Of a stretch of DNA of 64,000 nucleotides, positions 14,370 through 61,506 are shown in pieces. The notes beneath the pieces were generated by a model, which saw only the letters and a list, made by a program, of their open reading frames with translations, was not told the DNA's origin and did no database searches. The DNA is from a virus. Both the position numbers and the translations under genes were made by a program. The stretch's first letter is position 1, and every line of letters begins with the position of its first letter. Location: the IMG/VR virus record IMGVR_UViG_3300044631_002422, positions 1-64,000 of that record. One strand, given 5' to 3'.

Positions 14370-15368
14370 TTAGAACGAGCCAGCGATGATTCTACGATTG
14401 TCCAGAACGCCGAAACCAATTTCAGCCCAGCCGTAGTAGCCTTGTCGTTGATGACGATGAAGAGCAGGATCTTCAAAGATCTCAACTTCTTTCTTGACAG
14501 GCATAACGAAACTGTCATTGGCGCTCTTGTCGATACCAATAACCAACTCAACGTCGCCCGATTCGATTGAACCACCGAGATCGCTAGTAAAGTAGGTTTG
14601 GTATTCTTGACCATCGCCAAATTCAAACAGGTCATTCAGCGTAACACCGAAAACTCGGGTCAAAGCAGGACCGTCCGAAGAAGCGACATAAATTTCTCTA
14701 CGAGAAACTTCGTCAAGCTGATCAACGCCCCAGTTGCGAATATCTTCGATAGCTTCTGGAGACATATAAAGGTCAGTCAAACGTCCCGGAGCAGTAACAT
14801 TGTTACCGCCGCCGTTTCGACGCATAACAGTCTTCATCAAGCTAACAAGACGCTTGGTGAACTGACCAGCAGCAGCATCGCCGTCGTAAACCAAAATGTT
14901 ACGATCTACAGCAGCTGCGAGCAAAGTGTGCCAACCGTCATCATTGATCTTCTTGACAAAAGAAGATTCAAGAACTTGCATAGCGCGACCAATGACGTTC
15001 CAGTTAGCTTCACGGGCATACTTCAGCAAGAAATCAATCGAGCTTGTGATGCCGTAGGTGTTGATCATAACGTAATCACCTTCAACATGACGTTCTGGGA
15101 TACGTCCGTTGCCGGGATTGGTAAACGCAACATGATCAACTTCAGTTCCGGGAGCCAAAAGGTCCAACGGAAATTCAGGTGATGCGCCGGGTTCCAGAGG
15201 CATTGGCTCATAGATGCCACGAACAACATCGCCAAACAAAACGCCCTTTCGCAATGGAAGTTCGAGAGCCTTAGCAATCTCGCGTTGTGCTTCCATAGCG
15301 ATGGATTTGTCAGAATCACCGGATCGCTTAAGCAATTCGATGAACTCAGGTGTAGGTCTATCTTTCAT
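14370..15368 (-). CDS. Major capsid protein (HK97-like)
   Basis: A 332-aa protein. Its position (terminase, portal, protease/scaffold, decoration protein, then this gene, then a terminator) is the classical place of the major head protein. The C-terminal segment GYYGWAEIGFGVLDNRRI and the preceding VMPVKKEVEIFEDPALHRH resemble the last strands of HK97-fold capsid proteins that take a role in inter-subunit contact. It has a strong ribosome site, AAAGGAGAAAAGATA before ATG, consistent with very high expression. No extra domains are seen. Length is at the short end of the family, which often starts with a cleaved delta domain; here the N-terminal about 40 residues are helix-like. Confidence 0.85.
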   Translation of the reverse strand: MKDRPTPEFIELLKRSGDSDKSIAMEAQREIAKALELPLRKGVLFGDVVRGIYEPMPLEPGASPEFPLDLLAPGTEVDHVAFTNPGNGRIPERHVEGDYVMINTYGITSSIDFLLKYAREANWNVIGRAMQVLESSFVKKINDDGWHTLLAAAVDRNILVYDGDAAAGQFTKRLVSLMKTVMRRNGGGNNVTAPGRLTDLYMSPEAIEDIRNWGVDQLDEVSRREIYVASSDGPALTRVFGVTLNDLFEFGDGQEYQTYFTSDLGGSIESGDVELVIGIDKSANDSFVMPVKKEVEIFEDPALHRHQRQGYYGWAEIGFGVLDNRRIIAGSF

Positions 15369-19607: not shown

Positions 19608-21590
19608 CTAATACAAACCCTGTACTTTTTCAGTAAACCAAGAGGGTCCAGCAAATAACTTGTCGTTGCTGTAATCATAAAAAGCCGGTTGACCGCCGCG
19701 AGCAAAGCCCCCAATAGCTCCAGTTTCCATTGTGGTTTTTTCTGTAAGAAGACTTCTGGCAGACATATTGGCCATAATTAAAGATGAATAACGATCTTTT
19801 CTGAGTCTGTTTTTTCTACCGGTTCCGGTTTTAACTTCTGGGGTATCCCATCGCTCGCGACCATTTTGTGTTTGTGTCATAACTATCATAGAAAGTTCAT
19901 CCTTCAACTCTTCTATTTCCATCACACAATCTTCTAGTGTATCGTATTTTCTTCCTACGGACTTATCTACCTCCAACGACAATCCCAAGCTAACAGAGTC
20001 AAAATAAGGAAATAAAATAATCTTATCTTCAAAATCTTTTCTTAATCCGTGATTAGCTTCCGCCAACCATTCAGATCTTGCAAACTGACACATTCGCAAT
20101 ATATGCAAGCCCTGTTTATCATCAGTATCTTTTGCTTTTTCTTCAATAACAGGCCATATTGGAAGTTCACCTTCGGGAATTTTGTCCTTGTCATGCAAAG
20201 CTTCCATAACAGCAATACCACCGCCCTGCGCGTCCATTGCTATTTCAGAGCAAGGAAATGACTTCATCAACTTTCTTATTTTCTTTGCGCAGAAAGAATA
20301 AAAATCATCCTCTTCGACTATTTTAGATTTAACTAATTCCTTGTGCGATTTTCTGTTTGTAGTCCAGCAATGTACTATTTTTCTATGATCGCTATTTACT
20401 TCCATGACAACAATACTAAAGTTGTCAACTTCAGAAGCGGGATCAACCCCGAATACATATTTTTTATCTGAATCGCCAGTAAGACTAGCCTCAAAACAAA
20501 TTTCGCCAGATTGAAGTCTTACTGGTTTTGATGGAGATACGGTACATGATTCTATTAAACTACGCTTGAAAAAGCCTTGGCTATCGCTAGTAAAAATAGC
20601 CCCATACTCCATTTGAAAAATACCAGAGTGAACAGTTGCTTTTGCTCGTCCAATTTGGCCAGCGTCCATAAACCCTTCTGGAAGTTTATCGACAGGTATT
20701 CTTATCACTGAATAATTACGGTAGTCAAAGTCAACTGGAACTTCTCCGTTAAATATTTCTTCTAGCCTTCTTCTGTCTCCGCCACTTGACACAATAGCAT
20801 GATATCGCTTGAAGTACTCGGCAAAATGGTTGAAGTCATAATATGCAGTACCAGATAAAATAATTTGATTTGATTTATCGGAAGGATTTTCAGATTCATC
20901 CGGTTTGGCCATTGCTATTCCAAGCTCTTTTGCTTTTTTCTCTTTTGCCTTTTGTTTGACTTTTTCAATTGGAGAAGACGAAACAGCGGCAAAACCAGCC
21001 ACTACATTTTCAAAAATATCTCTCGGGATCGAGGCAAACTCATCGGCAATTATATCATTAGCGCGTTGGCCGCGAATTTTAGAACCATCACCAAGCGGAA
21101 GACATGTTATTGTACTTTGCCCAATATGCATAACACAACGATCAATATCGCGTCTAGGACCACTGTTGCTATCGCACAAATCTCGTAAAACTGGGGCGTT
21201 TTTCCATATTGTATCCATATATTCAAACAAAACTTTGGACTGTCTAAATGCAGCGCCCACAATAATTATCTTTCTGCGAGGCATAAACAAACCTCGAAGC
21301 AATGGATACACCGAAAGTATAAAACTTTTACCCATACCACGGCTACCAACAAGCATGGGAAATTTACGGTTCCACATTTCATAAAGCAACAAAGACTGAA
21401 ATGGGCTAAGTTCAATATTTAATATATACTTACAAGCAAAGCTAAAATATTCTGGACGCATCATCAACCATGAAAGTCTTTTCAATAGAGTTTCGCCGTC
21501 CAAGAAGTCCTGCATTACAAAATCCATTGGATTGAACAACTCAGAATCATTTACATCTATATCAAGCCAAGCATCGTCTAGATTTTTCAT
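19608..21590 (-). CDS. Terminase large subunit (TerL)
   Basis: A 660-aa DNA-packaging motor. Walker A is GSRGMGKS at about residues 82-89, and Walker B with catalytic Glu is DIIADE near 179-184. The RNase H-like nuclease half begins with VFGVDPASEVDNFSIVV and has a second acidic site at EIAMDAQGGG. A charged insertion rich in Lys (KVKQKAKEKKAKEL) lies after the ATPase core. It overlaps the ClpP-like gene by four bases (ATGA-type coupling) and precedes the portal, the standard order. Confidence 0.95.
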   Translation of the reverse strand: MKNLDDAWLDIDVNDSELFNPMDFVMQDFLDGETLLKRLSWLMMRPEYFSFACKYILNIELSPFQSLLLYEMWNRKFPMLVGSRGMGKSFILSVYPLLRGLFMPRRKIIIVGAAFRQSKVLFEYMDTIWKNAPVLRDLCDSNSGPRRDIDRCVMHIGQSTITCLPLGDGSKIRGQRANDIIADEFASIPRDIFENVVAGFAAVSSSPIEKVKQKAKEKKAKELGIAMAKPDESENPSDKSNQIILSGTAYYDFNHFAEYFKRYHAIVSSGGDRRRLEEIFNGEVPVDFDYRNYSVIRIPVDKLPEGFMDAGQIGRAKATVHSGIFQMEYGAIFTSDSQGFFKRSLIESCTVSPSKPVRLQSGEICFEASLTGDSDKKYVFGVDPASEVDNFSIVVMEVNSDHRKIVHCWTTNRKSHKELVKSKIVEEDDFYSFCAKKIRKLMKSFPCSEIAMDAQGGGIAVMEALHDKDKIPEGELPIWPVIEEKAKDTDDKQGLHILRMCQFARSEWLAEANHGLRKDFEDKIILFPYFDSVSLGLSLEVDKSVGRKYDTLEDCVMEIEELKDELSMIVMTQTQNGRERWDTPEVKTGTGRKNRLRKDRYSSLIMANMSARSLLTEKTTMETGAIGGFARGGQPAFYDYSNDKLFAGPSWFTEKVQGLY

Positions 21591-34931: not shown

Positions 34932-35138
34932 TTGCTACGCTTGCAACGGCGACGGTCAGCAGACAATCGCTAAGGTGCGGAACAAACCAACAAAATCCGC
35001 ACGACTCGATTGGGCGAGTATAAATAGGATGATAGGCCCAATGCGGCGGCATTTGCCGCGAATCGGCATTAAAGTTTAGCCCTCCTGTCGTCAGACGGCA
35101 GCAAACTAAACGAGCTAGCGTGTCGCCCCAACAGTTCT
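34932..35138 (+). ncRNA. Candidate structured RNA or 3' leader region
   Basis: A 207-base gene-free stretch with several strong hairpins: GTGCGGA..TCCGCAC (34975-35002 area), GCGGC-ATTT-GCCGC near 35042-35057, and CTGTC..GGCAG near 35085. GC content is higher than the flanks. It ends at a strong terminator. It also contains TATAAATA at 35019. Could be a small RNA, a long 3' UTR or an origin-like region; I cannot decide. Confidence 0.4.
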
Positions 35139-38605: not shown

Positions 38606-38748
38606 AGGTCTTTGTTGTAATTTGTTTTAAGGTAATTGGCCGCGAACATATTTTTGTAAATGCCGCCGTTTTCAAAAACTCAAATGACGCATCTACGTTT
38701 GGTGCAAATTATGACGATTCAATAGTAATCGAAAGGACTGTATCTTGA
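38602..38748 (+). CDS. 48-aa protein, unknown
   Basis: MKVFVVICFKVIGREHIFVN...; ATGA overlap on the left and TTGA overlap on the right. Small beta protein. Confidence 0.6.
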   Translation: MKVFVVICFKVIGREHIFVNAAVFKNSNDASTFGANYDDSIVIERTVS

Positions 38749-39167
38749 ACGCCAAAGTTTATATTTACTGGAATTTACATAAGCGTTGTTTCAGTGCAAA
38801 ACGAAACGGCAAAGTTTTCGCCCACTTCCGAAATGCCAGCATTTTGAATCCTGAGTTTCGAGTGAGTGCTGCTGGATGCCGCCGTGTTCGTCGCGATGGT
38901 CGCAAAAATGTTCATGCCAACATTGTATGCGAATTGGAGAATTTTACAATTCATTCAGACAGCAGAATCGCCCCTGTTAGTGACGCTACTGCTGAGTATG
39001 CTTACTATAATCCGTATCTTTACGAAACTTTTGTTGACAACGAAGGTGATGCATTGTATAATGCACAAAGTGCCGAGTTAACCACTTATGAGCATATGCT
39101 CAATTACTATAAAAATTTGAAAGAAAGACAACCCATTATTTACATTACGAAAGAAGCAAATGACTAA
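38745..39167 (+). CDS. Conserved phage protein (TTG start, 140 aa)
   Basis: TTG start overlapping the previous stop, seven bases after AAAGGAC. VYIYWNLHKRCFSAKRNGKV, then RKNVHANIVCEL in the middle; the 'N.hk..wS...nGkV..h....l....F.V...G..rvr...rKnVHA' plan is common to many phages. Unknown role. Confidence 0.75.
   Translation: MNAKVYIYWNLHKRCFSAKRNGKVFAHFRNASILNPEFRVSAAGCRRVRRDGRKNVHANIVCELENFTIHSDSRIAPVSDATAEYAYYNPYLYETFVDNEGDALYNAQSAELTTYEHMLNYYKNLKERQPIIYITKEAND
39034..39062 (+). promoter_or_regulatory. Internal promoter candidate
   Basis: TTGACA, 17 bases, TATAAT inside the 140-aa gene; would serve 39160-39832. Confidence 0.55.
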
Positions 39168-51221: not shown

Positions 51222-51259
51222 TATTTGGCGCGGTGGTGAAATGGCAGACACTCAGGACT

Positions 51260-51702
51260 CAAAAAGGGTCGGCTATCTCGAAAGGGATAGTTAGTAAGGT
51301 GTAAATTCGGTGAACGCTTAACAGATAATGCTGATGCCAACGCCGAGCGAAGCTCAAATAAATATTGGAACTGTAAACTGAGTTCGATTCTCAGGATGCT
51401 TGGTTGCTGTGTGGTTCGATTCCACAATGCTCTCTGGTGAGGGGACTGGTTCGAATCCAGTTGTTTGAGAACGTGTAGAGACTATAATCACCCACCTAAT
51501 GTAGATAGCAAATTATATTGCGGGGGCAGACATAGTAGAGTGTATATCTCGTCTACCTATCTATAATGGTGAAGGCATAGTCCAGACCACAAACATGGAA
51601 GATTCTCTCAGTGAGACAGAAACTCACGTTAATCAAACAAACAGAGTGGGGAGAGTGAGAGATAAAATATCCCCCATTGGCGGTGAAAACCGTAGTGGTA
51701 AG
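51260..51702 (+). ncRNA. Group I intron in tRNA-Leu (443 nt)
   Basis: Exon 1 ends in T and the intron ends in G, as group I rules require. The 5' exon GACT pairs with GGTC at 51267-51270, giving the expected U-G pair at the splice site (P1). The P7/R element is TGTAGAGACTATA at about 51473-51486 and the S element AAGGCATAGTCCAGA at 51572. No intron protein is encoded. The site, between bases 33 and 34 by this reading, is next to the known insertion site of cyanobacterial tRNA-Leu(UAA) introns. Confidence 0.85.
51378..51461 (+). repeat. Three T-arm-like hairpins inside the intron
   Basis: CTGAG-TTCGATT-CTCAG (51378-51394), TGTGG-TTCGATT-CCACA (51410-51426) and ACTGG-TTCGAAT-CCAGT (51445-51461). 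Each is a perfect five-pair stem with a seven-base tRNA T loop, spaced 32-35 bases apart, between the Q and R parts of the intron. Confidence 0.85.
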
Positions 51703-51779
51703 TAAAATCCTGTGGGAATTAAATCCCGTGCGGGTTCGAGTCCCGCTCGCGCTATTTCTCTATATTTTTTAAAAATGTT

Positions 51780-59430: not shown

Positions 59431-59566
59431 GGCATATTAGTTTAATGGGTAATTGTAGATCTTAGCTAAATCTATTTAAATTACGCATTCAAGTTTTCTA
59501 GAAACTGTAGAATGTTAAAGCGCCGTGAGTCCACGGAAGAATACGGTTCGATTCCGTAATATGCCG
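59431..59566 (+). ncRNA. tRNA-like RNA with oversized body (136 nt)
   Basis: Perfect acceptor GGCATAT/ATATGCC, T arm TACGG-TTCGATT-CCGTA and discriminator G. A D-like stretch resembles that of tRNA-Ile at 59200. The anticodon-position hairpin TAGAT..ATCTA has a nine-base loop CTTAGCTAA. Before the T arm are two extra hairpins, CATTC-A-AGTTT..AAACT..GAATG and CCGTG-AGTC-CACGG. It might be a tRNA-Ser(GCT) with a huge variable region; the loop is not canonical. Confidence 0.65.
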
Positions 59567-59571
59567 CTATT

Positions 59572-61044: not shown

Positions 61045-61330
61045 GGGCTAGAAAGGTTTCGAATCAGTATAGAGATTTTAAATGCATCGCGTAGTTGGGA
61101 TAGAGGCTACGTTAAAACTATTCCAAAATTTTAATTGGCAAGAATACTCTTGCTCTCGCTGCCTAATAAGTAGCTAGGGTTGCCCGACACCTTACTAACC
61201 AAAGTCGGGTAATATTATATCACTCTTAGACTGACTTGTTGCGGCGGTCAGGTAAAAAATGCAGCAACTAACGATGTAGATTTTAACTTTGTAAGTATCT
61301 GATGACCCGTTTTCGATAACGGCTAGTCCA
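61045..61330 (+). ncRNA. ssrA: tmRNA (transfer-messenger RNA)
   Basis: Ends GGGCTAG and CTAGTCC pair in seven base pairs with a G3-U70 pair, the alanine identity element; discriminator A. The 5' D-loop-like AAGGTTTCGAA and the P2 pairing ATCAG/CTGAT are present. A T-arm CCGTT..AACGG closes the tRNA part. The tag frame ends ACT CTT GCT CTC GCT GCC TAA TAA, and the likely tag is SKILIGKNTLALAA with a double stop. A pseudoknot-type pairing (CTGAC..GTCAG with TTGTTGC/GCAGCAA) follows. It rescues stalled ribosomes and tags proteins for decay. Confidence 0.85.
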
Positions 61331-61379
61331 CTGAAGTTTTTAAAAAACGAGCTTCTCTGCCATGCGTAGAGGAAGTAAC

Positions 61380-61409: not shown

Positions 61410-61506
61410 GGGAAAGTGATGATAAAGACGCTAAATAGAATAAAAGACAATGGTAGGCTTGCTCCTGAGTCGGAGCCTGATGCTGGTTCGAATCCAGCCT
61501 TTCCCA
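61410..61506 (+). ncRNA. tRNA-like RNA without clear anticodon (97 nt)
   Basis: Perfect acceptor GGGAAAG/CTTTCCC, T arm GCTGG-TTCGAAT-CCAGC, discriminator A and then eight T. The middle has an AATGGTAG D-loop-like word and a GCTCC-TGAGTC-GGAGC hairpin with a six-base loop, but a 30-base A-rich insertion near the 5' end and no canonical anticodon arm. Confidence 0.6.

Follow-up and report, generated by a model that had tools for sequence, protein, structure and literature searches.

Positions 51227-51754 (+ strand) of the window, a stretch of 64,000 nucleotides (nt) comprising positions 1 to 64,000 of the IMG/VR virus record IMGVR_UViG_3300044631_002422, hold a class II tRNA-Leu(UAA) gene that is split in its anticodon loop. 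The locus is very likely a tRNA-Leu(UAA) precursor with an IC3-like group I ribozyme and a separate three-T-arm (3T) RNA within the P6 domain of that ribozyme. The known phage group I introns of T4 td, nrdB, SPO1 and Twort, mostly of subgroup IA, are also ribozymes in phage genomes, but they interrupt protein genes, whereas the window intron interrupts a tRNA gene. Indeed, all phage introns observed to date were stated to reside in protein-coding genes (Hausner et al., 2014; PMC3984707). The split gene overturns this stated rule, and split tRNA genes are widespread in viral sequences.

The 5' exon (51227-51259) ends at U33 (...CAGGACU), and an intron of 443 nt (51260-51702), delimited by covariance model R1, lies between U33 and U34. 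The 3' exon (51703-51754) begins with U(34)AAAAUCCUG and extends to the discriminator A, with no CCA encoded at its 3' end. These and all other features of the locus lie on the + strand. Joined, the exons provide an acceptor stem (GGCGCGG/UCGCGCU), a D-stem (GUG/CAC), an anticodon stem (CAGGA/UCCUG), the loop CU|UAAAA with anticodon UAA, a class II variable arm, a T-arm and discriminator A, and ARAGORN calls the spliced product tRNA-Leu(UAA), the identity given in a first-pass annotation of the window. Without intron search, the same program misses the split gene. When introns are permitted, its junction is wrong by 4 nt and the anticodon becomes CAA, a candidate that was rejected because the exon would then end in A and the intron in a base other than G. 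The orthologous locus of a related phage (L419) confirms the predicted junction, as its tRNA-Leu(UAA) is uninterrupted, with the loop CUUAAAA. Both phages share the gene order gamma-glutamyl cyclotransferase, tRNA and HODM-like gene, the product of the last, located 3' of the tRNA, having a homologue 74% identical in L419. The intron is present in one phage lineage and absent from its relative. A second contig (L008) carries the split locus in identical form, and the full 148-kilobase (kb) record yielded no further tRNA-Leu gene. Directly 3' of the tRNA gene begins a perfect 12-nt inverted repeat (51755-51766/51837-51848), with its halves 70 nt apart.

The intron carries the paired elements P1 to P9. 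In P1 (51256-51270), the exon end GACU (51256-51259) pairs with the internal guide GGUC (51267-51270), with a U.G pair at the splice site, and the guide covaries with the exon and the site across the family. P2 is a hairpin of 9 base pairs with a GAAA loop (51271-51292), P3 is a pseudoknot between GGUG (51298-51301) and CACC (51489-51492), and P4 (UCGGUG/CGCCGA) and P5 occupy 51307-51346, as indicated by RNAalifold covariation and R1. The P6 domain (51347-51474), defined by alignment A1 and the model match, is followed by P7 (GACUAU, 51480-51485/AUAGUC, 51577-51582), an extended P8 (51493-51571; CACC, 51493-51496/GGUG, 51568-51571) and a P9 region (51586-51699) closed by ACCAC (51586-51590) and GUGGU (51695-51699). 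P2 and P7 to P9 are drawn from the consensus of relatives and from R1, with P2 and P7 also read from the sequence itself. The last base of the intron is G51702, as expected of group I.

Model R1 was built from 27 compact relatives aligned along the entire intron, with the window excluded. It matches the window intron at full length with 147.3 bits (E 2.8e-40), every pair being standard and none broken. Its consensus comprises 43 pairs, 31 of which show two-sided compensatory changes in at least one of the 27 relatives. P3, which a nested consensus does not show, also covaries in these relatives (GGUG/CACC, AGCUG/CAGCU and GAUUG/CAGUC). The group I assignment of the first-pass annotation, along with the features it cited (P1 with U-G at the splice site, the terminal G, and the P7 word, here found with its paired word), is thus borne out. 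Across the 148-kb record, R1 detects a single convincing intron, and a 17-bit match of the Rfam Intron_gpI model (RF00028) at 38717-38856 (-) was taken as chance. No homing endonuclease is found in the window intron.

In compact relatives, P6a is a short capped hairpin. In the window, an acceptor-like stem (51353-51360/51462-51469) takes its place and leaves the core undisturbed. This stem is part of a 3T RNA of 117 nt (51353-51469), which the first-pass annotation had overlooked, and encloses T-arms at 51378-51394, 51410-51426 and 51445-51461, the third predicted to stack on the acceptor-like stem. The arms were recognized as repeats, and three perfect T-arms did not arise in any of 20,000 shuffles of the intron. 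Each T-arm is preceded by a GG-bearing, D-arm-like linker; linker and fold analysis places a hairpin (CUCUC-UGGU-GAGGG, 51427-51444) ahead of the third. Covariance model R2, which describes the 3T RNA and was trained without the window, matches the element with 75.1 bits (E 4.6e-25). With three T-arms and no anticodon arm, the P6 insert is not a tRNA cloverleaf with single D-, anticodon and T-arms, and its best match in the Rfam tRNA clan reaches 20.3 bits against a cut-off of 47. A tRNA-Sec match in P6 proved false, being produced by one T-arm.

Outside introns, about 20 homologues of the 3T RNA are free-standing in other phage contigs. BLAST of the P6 segment led to the tRNA cluster of cyanophage S-CRM01, where an unannotated element (136452-136575) encloses three T-arms in an outer stem; their spacing of 32 and 35 nt and the conserved linkers match those of the window. 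A further locus (L340) has a near-identical layout. Members were collected through pattern scans and an architectural filter; a tandem two-T-arm scan was unspecific, which the triple pattern combined with an outer stem resolved. After removal of one repeat and one ordinary tRNA, the set comprises 19 elements, 14 of them non-redundant. An outer stem is present in 20 of 63 distinct triples, whereas 2.9 would be expected, and all 42 of 42 linkers contain GG, a count that none of 5,000 shuffles reached. D-like hairpins form in the three linkers of 12, 12 and 13 of the 14 members, compared with about 6-7.5 expected, and several members fold into the 3T shape at or near minimum energy.

Like phage tRNA genes and tRNA-like RNAs, 3T RNAs combine T-arms, whose loops read TTCRA, with an acceptor-like stem, and many sit among phage tRNA genes. 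Unlike them, they have three T-arms, no anticodon arm and no useful Rfam match: Rfam at its cut-offs yields nothing at the 3T places, and two members searched at lax thresholds gave weak partial matches only. A full-text literature search, covering mainly freely accessible papers, found no report of multi-T-arm RNAs or of phage tRNA introns. The 3T RNA seems to represent a class of phage RNA not described before, and to our knowledge a tRNA-like RNA of this kind inside an intron is without precedent in phages. ARAGORN calls part of a 3T RNA tRNA-Ser at two loci (L326, 3620-3710; L357, 3463-3546), so some of the tRNAs listed in phage annotations may be pieces of 3T RNAs. In addition, many viral tRNA clusters (IMG/VR L012-L130, e.g., L016, L021 and L037) carry a second T-arm at most 41 nt past a complete tRNA or within an outer acceptor stem; these loci may represent tRNAs with two T-arms or one tRNA enclosed by another.

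The intron itself belongs to a large viral family. Relatives were found in IMG/VR using DNA patterns from P7 words, and a splice-site search put most of them inside tRNA genes. The curated viral set, drawn from IMG/VR contigs, comprises 44 tRNA introns including the window, a lower bound; the phage copy of the first-pass annotation is real but was understated, at least 43 other viral tRNA introns being known. Introns occur in tRNA-Leu(UAA) (11 after U33 and 15 after U34), CAU tRNAs (Met/Ile-CAU; 10 after U33), tRNA-Lys(UUU) (one after U33 and two after U34), tRNA-Ile(UAU) (one after U34) and tRNA-Asn(GUU) (four after U35). A relative that has lost its 3' exon (L136) was omitted. Phage members thus occupy at least five tRNA types and three adjacent positions, always after a U, which was a rule of the search. 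The guide was left free by the search, and it tracks the insertion site, being re-matched in each case (GACU^/GGUC, GACUU^/GAGUC, GCUGU^/GCAGC and GGCU^/GGC). Three such split tRNAs reside on one 88-kb contig (L138, L193).

Named phages carry the introns as well. Agrobacterium phage Atu_ph07, an isolate, has at 112890-113251 a tRNA-Leu(UAA) interrupted by an intron of 278 nt; its record lists a hypothetical protein there and no tRNA. Another Leu(UAA) intron, likewise unannotated, is found in the 735-kb phage LR756501, and a Microcoleus phage has an Arg(CCU) intron. The main texts of the Atu_ph07 and huge-phage papers make no mention of introns. Most family members lack a long reading frame, and an HNH-like frame occurs only in L198, as a weak Pfam match just under the cut-off. 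Other large structured inserts are present in P5 or P6 of five relatives (L009, L131, L136, L170 and L174); one insert, about 115 nt long, is shared by L009 and L136, and P5 of L136 contains a lone T-arm. Besides tRNA genes, this intron core interrupts protein genes of phages (L290, L291 and L293), namely the capsid gene in Pelagibacter phage HTVC120P and the gene for DnaB helicase in crAss-like phages.

Judged by its anticodon-loop site and a core homologous to those of bacterial tRNA introns, the window intron is a member of the IC3-like bacterial tRNA-intron family. It resembles the IC3 introns of Azoarcus tRNA-Ile(CAU), proteobacterial tRNA-Arg(CCU), cyanobacterial tRNA-Leu(UAA) and fMet in this site, in a compact P3-P8 core with the same conserved words, in a P1 guide with U.G, and in its terminal G. 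It differs from them in residing in a phage tRNA gene, in the replacement of P6a by a structured tRNA-like RNA, and in its position: the junction is U33|U34, whereas insertion follows U34 in the cyanobacterial and plastid tRNA-Leu(UAA) lineage and position 36 in tRNA-Arg and Azoarcus tRNA-Ile(CAU). R1 also matches the tRNA-Arg(CCU) introns of Burkholderiales (L257, 148 bits). A scan of bacteria for one core word recovered CAU introns after U33, Arg(CCU) introns after position 36 and Leu(UAA) introns after U34.

A tree of phage and bacterial introns, based on 131 core columns and with cyanobacterial introns not among its sequences, places the window intron in a marked clade (97/95) together with CAU introns, two from phages and five from bacteria. 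Of the bacterial ones, most come from Verrucomicrobiota genomes and one from a bin labelled Blastochloris; two have ordinary chromosomal genes as neighbours (for a prenyl synthase and for a sugar transporter). Leu and CAU introns inserted after U33 are interleaved (10 changes for the Leu introns against a shuffled mean of 10.5), the cores of one Leu intron and one Lys intron are identical, and most phage Leu introns after U34 are placed in the opposite half of the tree. The pattern is most simply explained by introns having moved repeatedly from one tRNA gene to another and between phages and bacteria. The mixing of viral and bacterial introns in the tree agrees with the exchange between phage and host proposed in the first-pass annotation, direction aside; the cyanobacterial and plastid parallel drawn there does not fit the site after U33 or the nearest kin, which are phage and Verrucomicrobiota CAU introns.

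In the proposed mechanism, the exon end GACU would pair with the internal guide GGUC, guanosine bound in P7 would attack after U33, and the freed U33 would attack after the terminal G51702, joining the exons into a normal anticodon loop. The exons would probably be held together by the anticodon stem rather than by P10. The intron seems to spread to further tRNA genes with an anticodon stem able to pair with its guide, either through homing or through reverse splicing; an endonuclease is absent from most members. The P6a hairpin has been replaced by an RNA of a separate family that is free-standing elsewhere, and the GG of each linker could dock into a T-loop as D-loops do in the tRNA elbow, which would give a fold with three elbows. 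Once excised, the intron could conceivably release the 3T RNA. A more far-reaching proposal, which is offered tentatively and is more doubtful than probable, is that the intron serves as a host gene for a functional 3T RNA. RNase P and 3' nucleases would release this RNA from P6 after splicing, and its three elbows would bind host factors that recognize tRNA elbows or T-arms (e.g., tRNA-modifying, -processing or -attacking enzymes), helping the phage to protect or commandeer tRNA.

Several observations weigh against the reading of the locus as a tRNA precursor with a ribozyme and a 3T RNA. The covariance-model check suggested in the first-pass annotation gave a divided answer: R1 matches strongly, whereas RF00028 reaches 19.9 bits (E 0.011), below its cut-off of 50. 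This low score says little because chromosomal bacterial introns and other phage members of the same family also stay below that cut-off. P1 is short, with 4 base pairs including U.G, no convincing P10 is seen in the window intron, and self-splicing is predicted from the anatomy of the intron. The 3T fold of the window segment (-35.8 kcal/mol) lies within 1.2 kcal/mol of the minimum (-37.0 kcal/mol) and is not the absolute minimum, and the D1 linker is poor. T-arms and outer stems entered the selection of 3T members, and their covariation is thus not independent evidence. A 3T RNA within an intron occurs only in this phage (the window and L008), none of 20 other loci having the intron. Finally, the tree, with its 131 columns, is poorly resolved.

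Among the rival explanations, the most serious, although rather unlikely, is that the three T-arms are debris, that is, 3' ends of tRNA genes left in P6 by recombination and having neither unity nor function. Phage tRNA arrays do recombine, the P6 segment has the slightly more stable alternative fold, and the single T-arm in P5 of L136 shows that a lone arm can occur in a related intron. Debris would not be expected to reproduce the spacing and linkers of S-CRM01 and the layout of L340, to recur in about 20 members with an enclosing stem and GG in every linker, or to match R2, trained on other loci, at such an E-value. It is less probable still that the intron is a dead relic, the tRNA being not made or its processing depending on something else. 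P1 is short, and the related L136 has lost its 3' exon; against this, the window intron retains all of its core pairs and splice-site features, the tRNA halves fit perfectly, and the record offers no second tRNA-Leu gene.

That the intron descended vertically from a tRNA-Leu(UAA) intron of cyanobacteria or plastids, or was recently transferred from one, is about as improbable as a relic, or marginally more so. The same tRNA is interrupted, and an IC3-like core is common to bacterial tRNA introns, but insertion after U33 rather than U34 argues against such an origin, as do the phage and Verrucomicrobiota kinship of the window intron and its separation from most phage Leu introns after U34 in the tree described above. 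An assembly chimera of tRNA, intron and tRNA-like element would be the least credible account. The contig is metagenomic; nevertheless, an identical locus on L008, an uninterrupted ortholog with the same neighbours in L419, and the placement of the element exactly at P6a with the core intact all speak against an artefact.

One reason why phage tRNA introns went unseen is that they escape both the Rfam model and tRNA finders that do not look for introns. As the same ribozyme family occupies three adjacent positions of many tRNAs, with a guide matched to each, ectopic spreading of group I introns becomes testable, and the isolated phage Atu_ph07 provides an experimental system for tRNA introns.

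The phage nature of the record, also recognized in the first-pass annotation, is evident from a terminase large subunit (19608-21590) and a head protein (14370-15368) in the window; DNA polymerase, helicase, primase and ribonucleotide reductase lie outside the window in the 148-kb record. BLAST of the whole locus against named phages gave no match, and BLAST of the intron against plasmids gave short matches only. Other structured RNAs in the window include a Pistol ribozyme at 35004-35065 (+; 47.7 bits, cut-off 34.5) and a phage-encoded transfer-messenger RNA (tmRNA) at 61045-61333 (+; 77.1 bits). A tRNA-like gene at 59431-59569 (+), which ARAGORN does not call, has an acceptor stem (GGCATAT/ATATGCC), a T-arm and about 67 extra nt in mid-gene. 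Just past the tmRNA, a tRNA-like element at 61410-61506 (+) combines an acceptor stem (GGGAAAG/CTTTCCC) with one T-arm and no ordinary anticodon arm.
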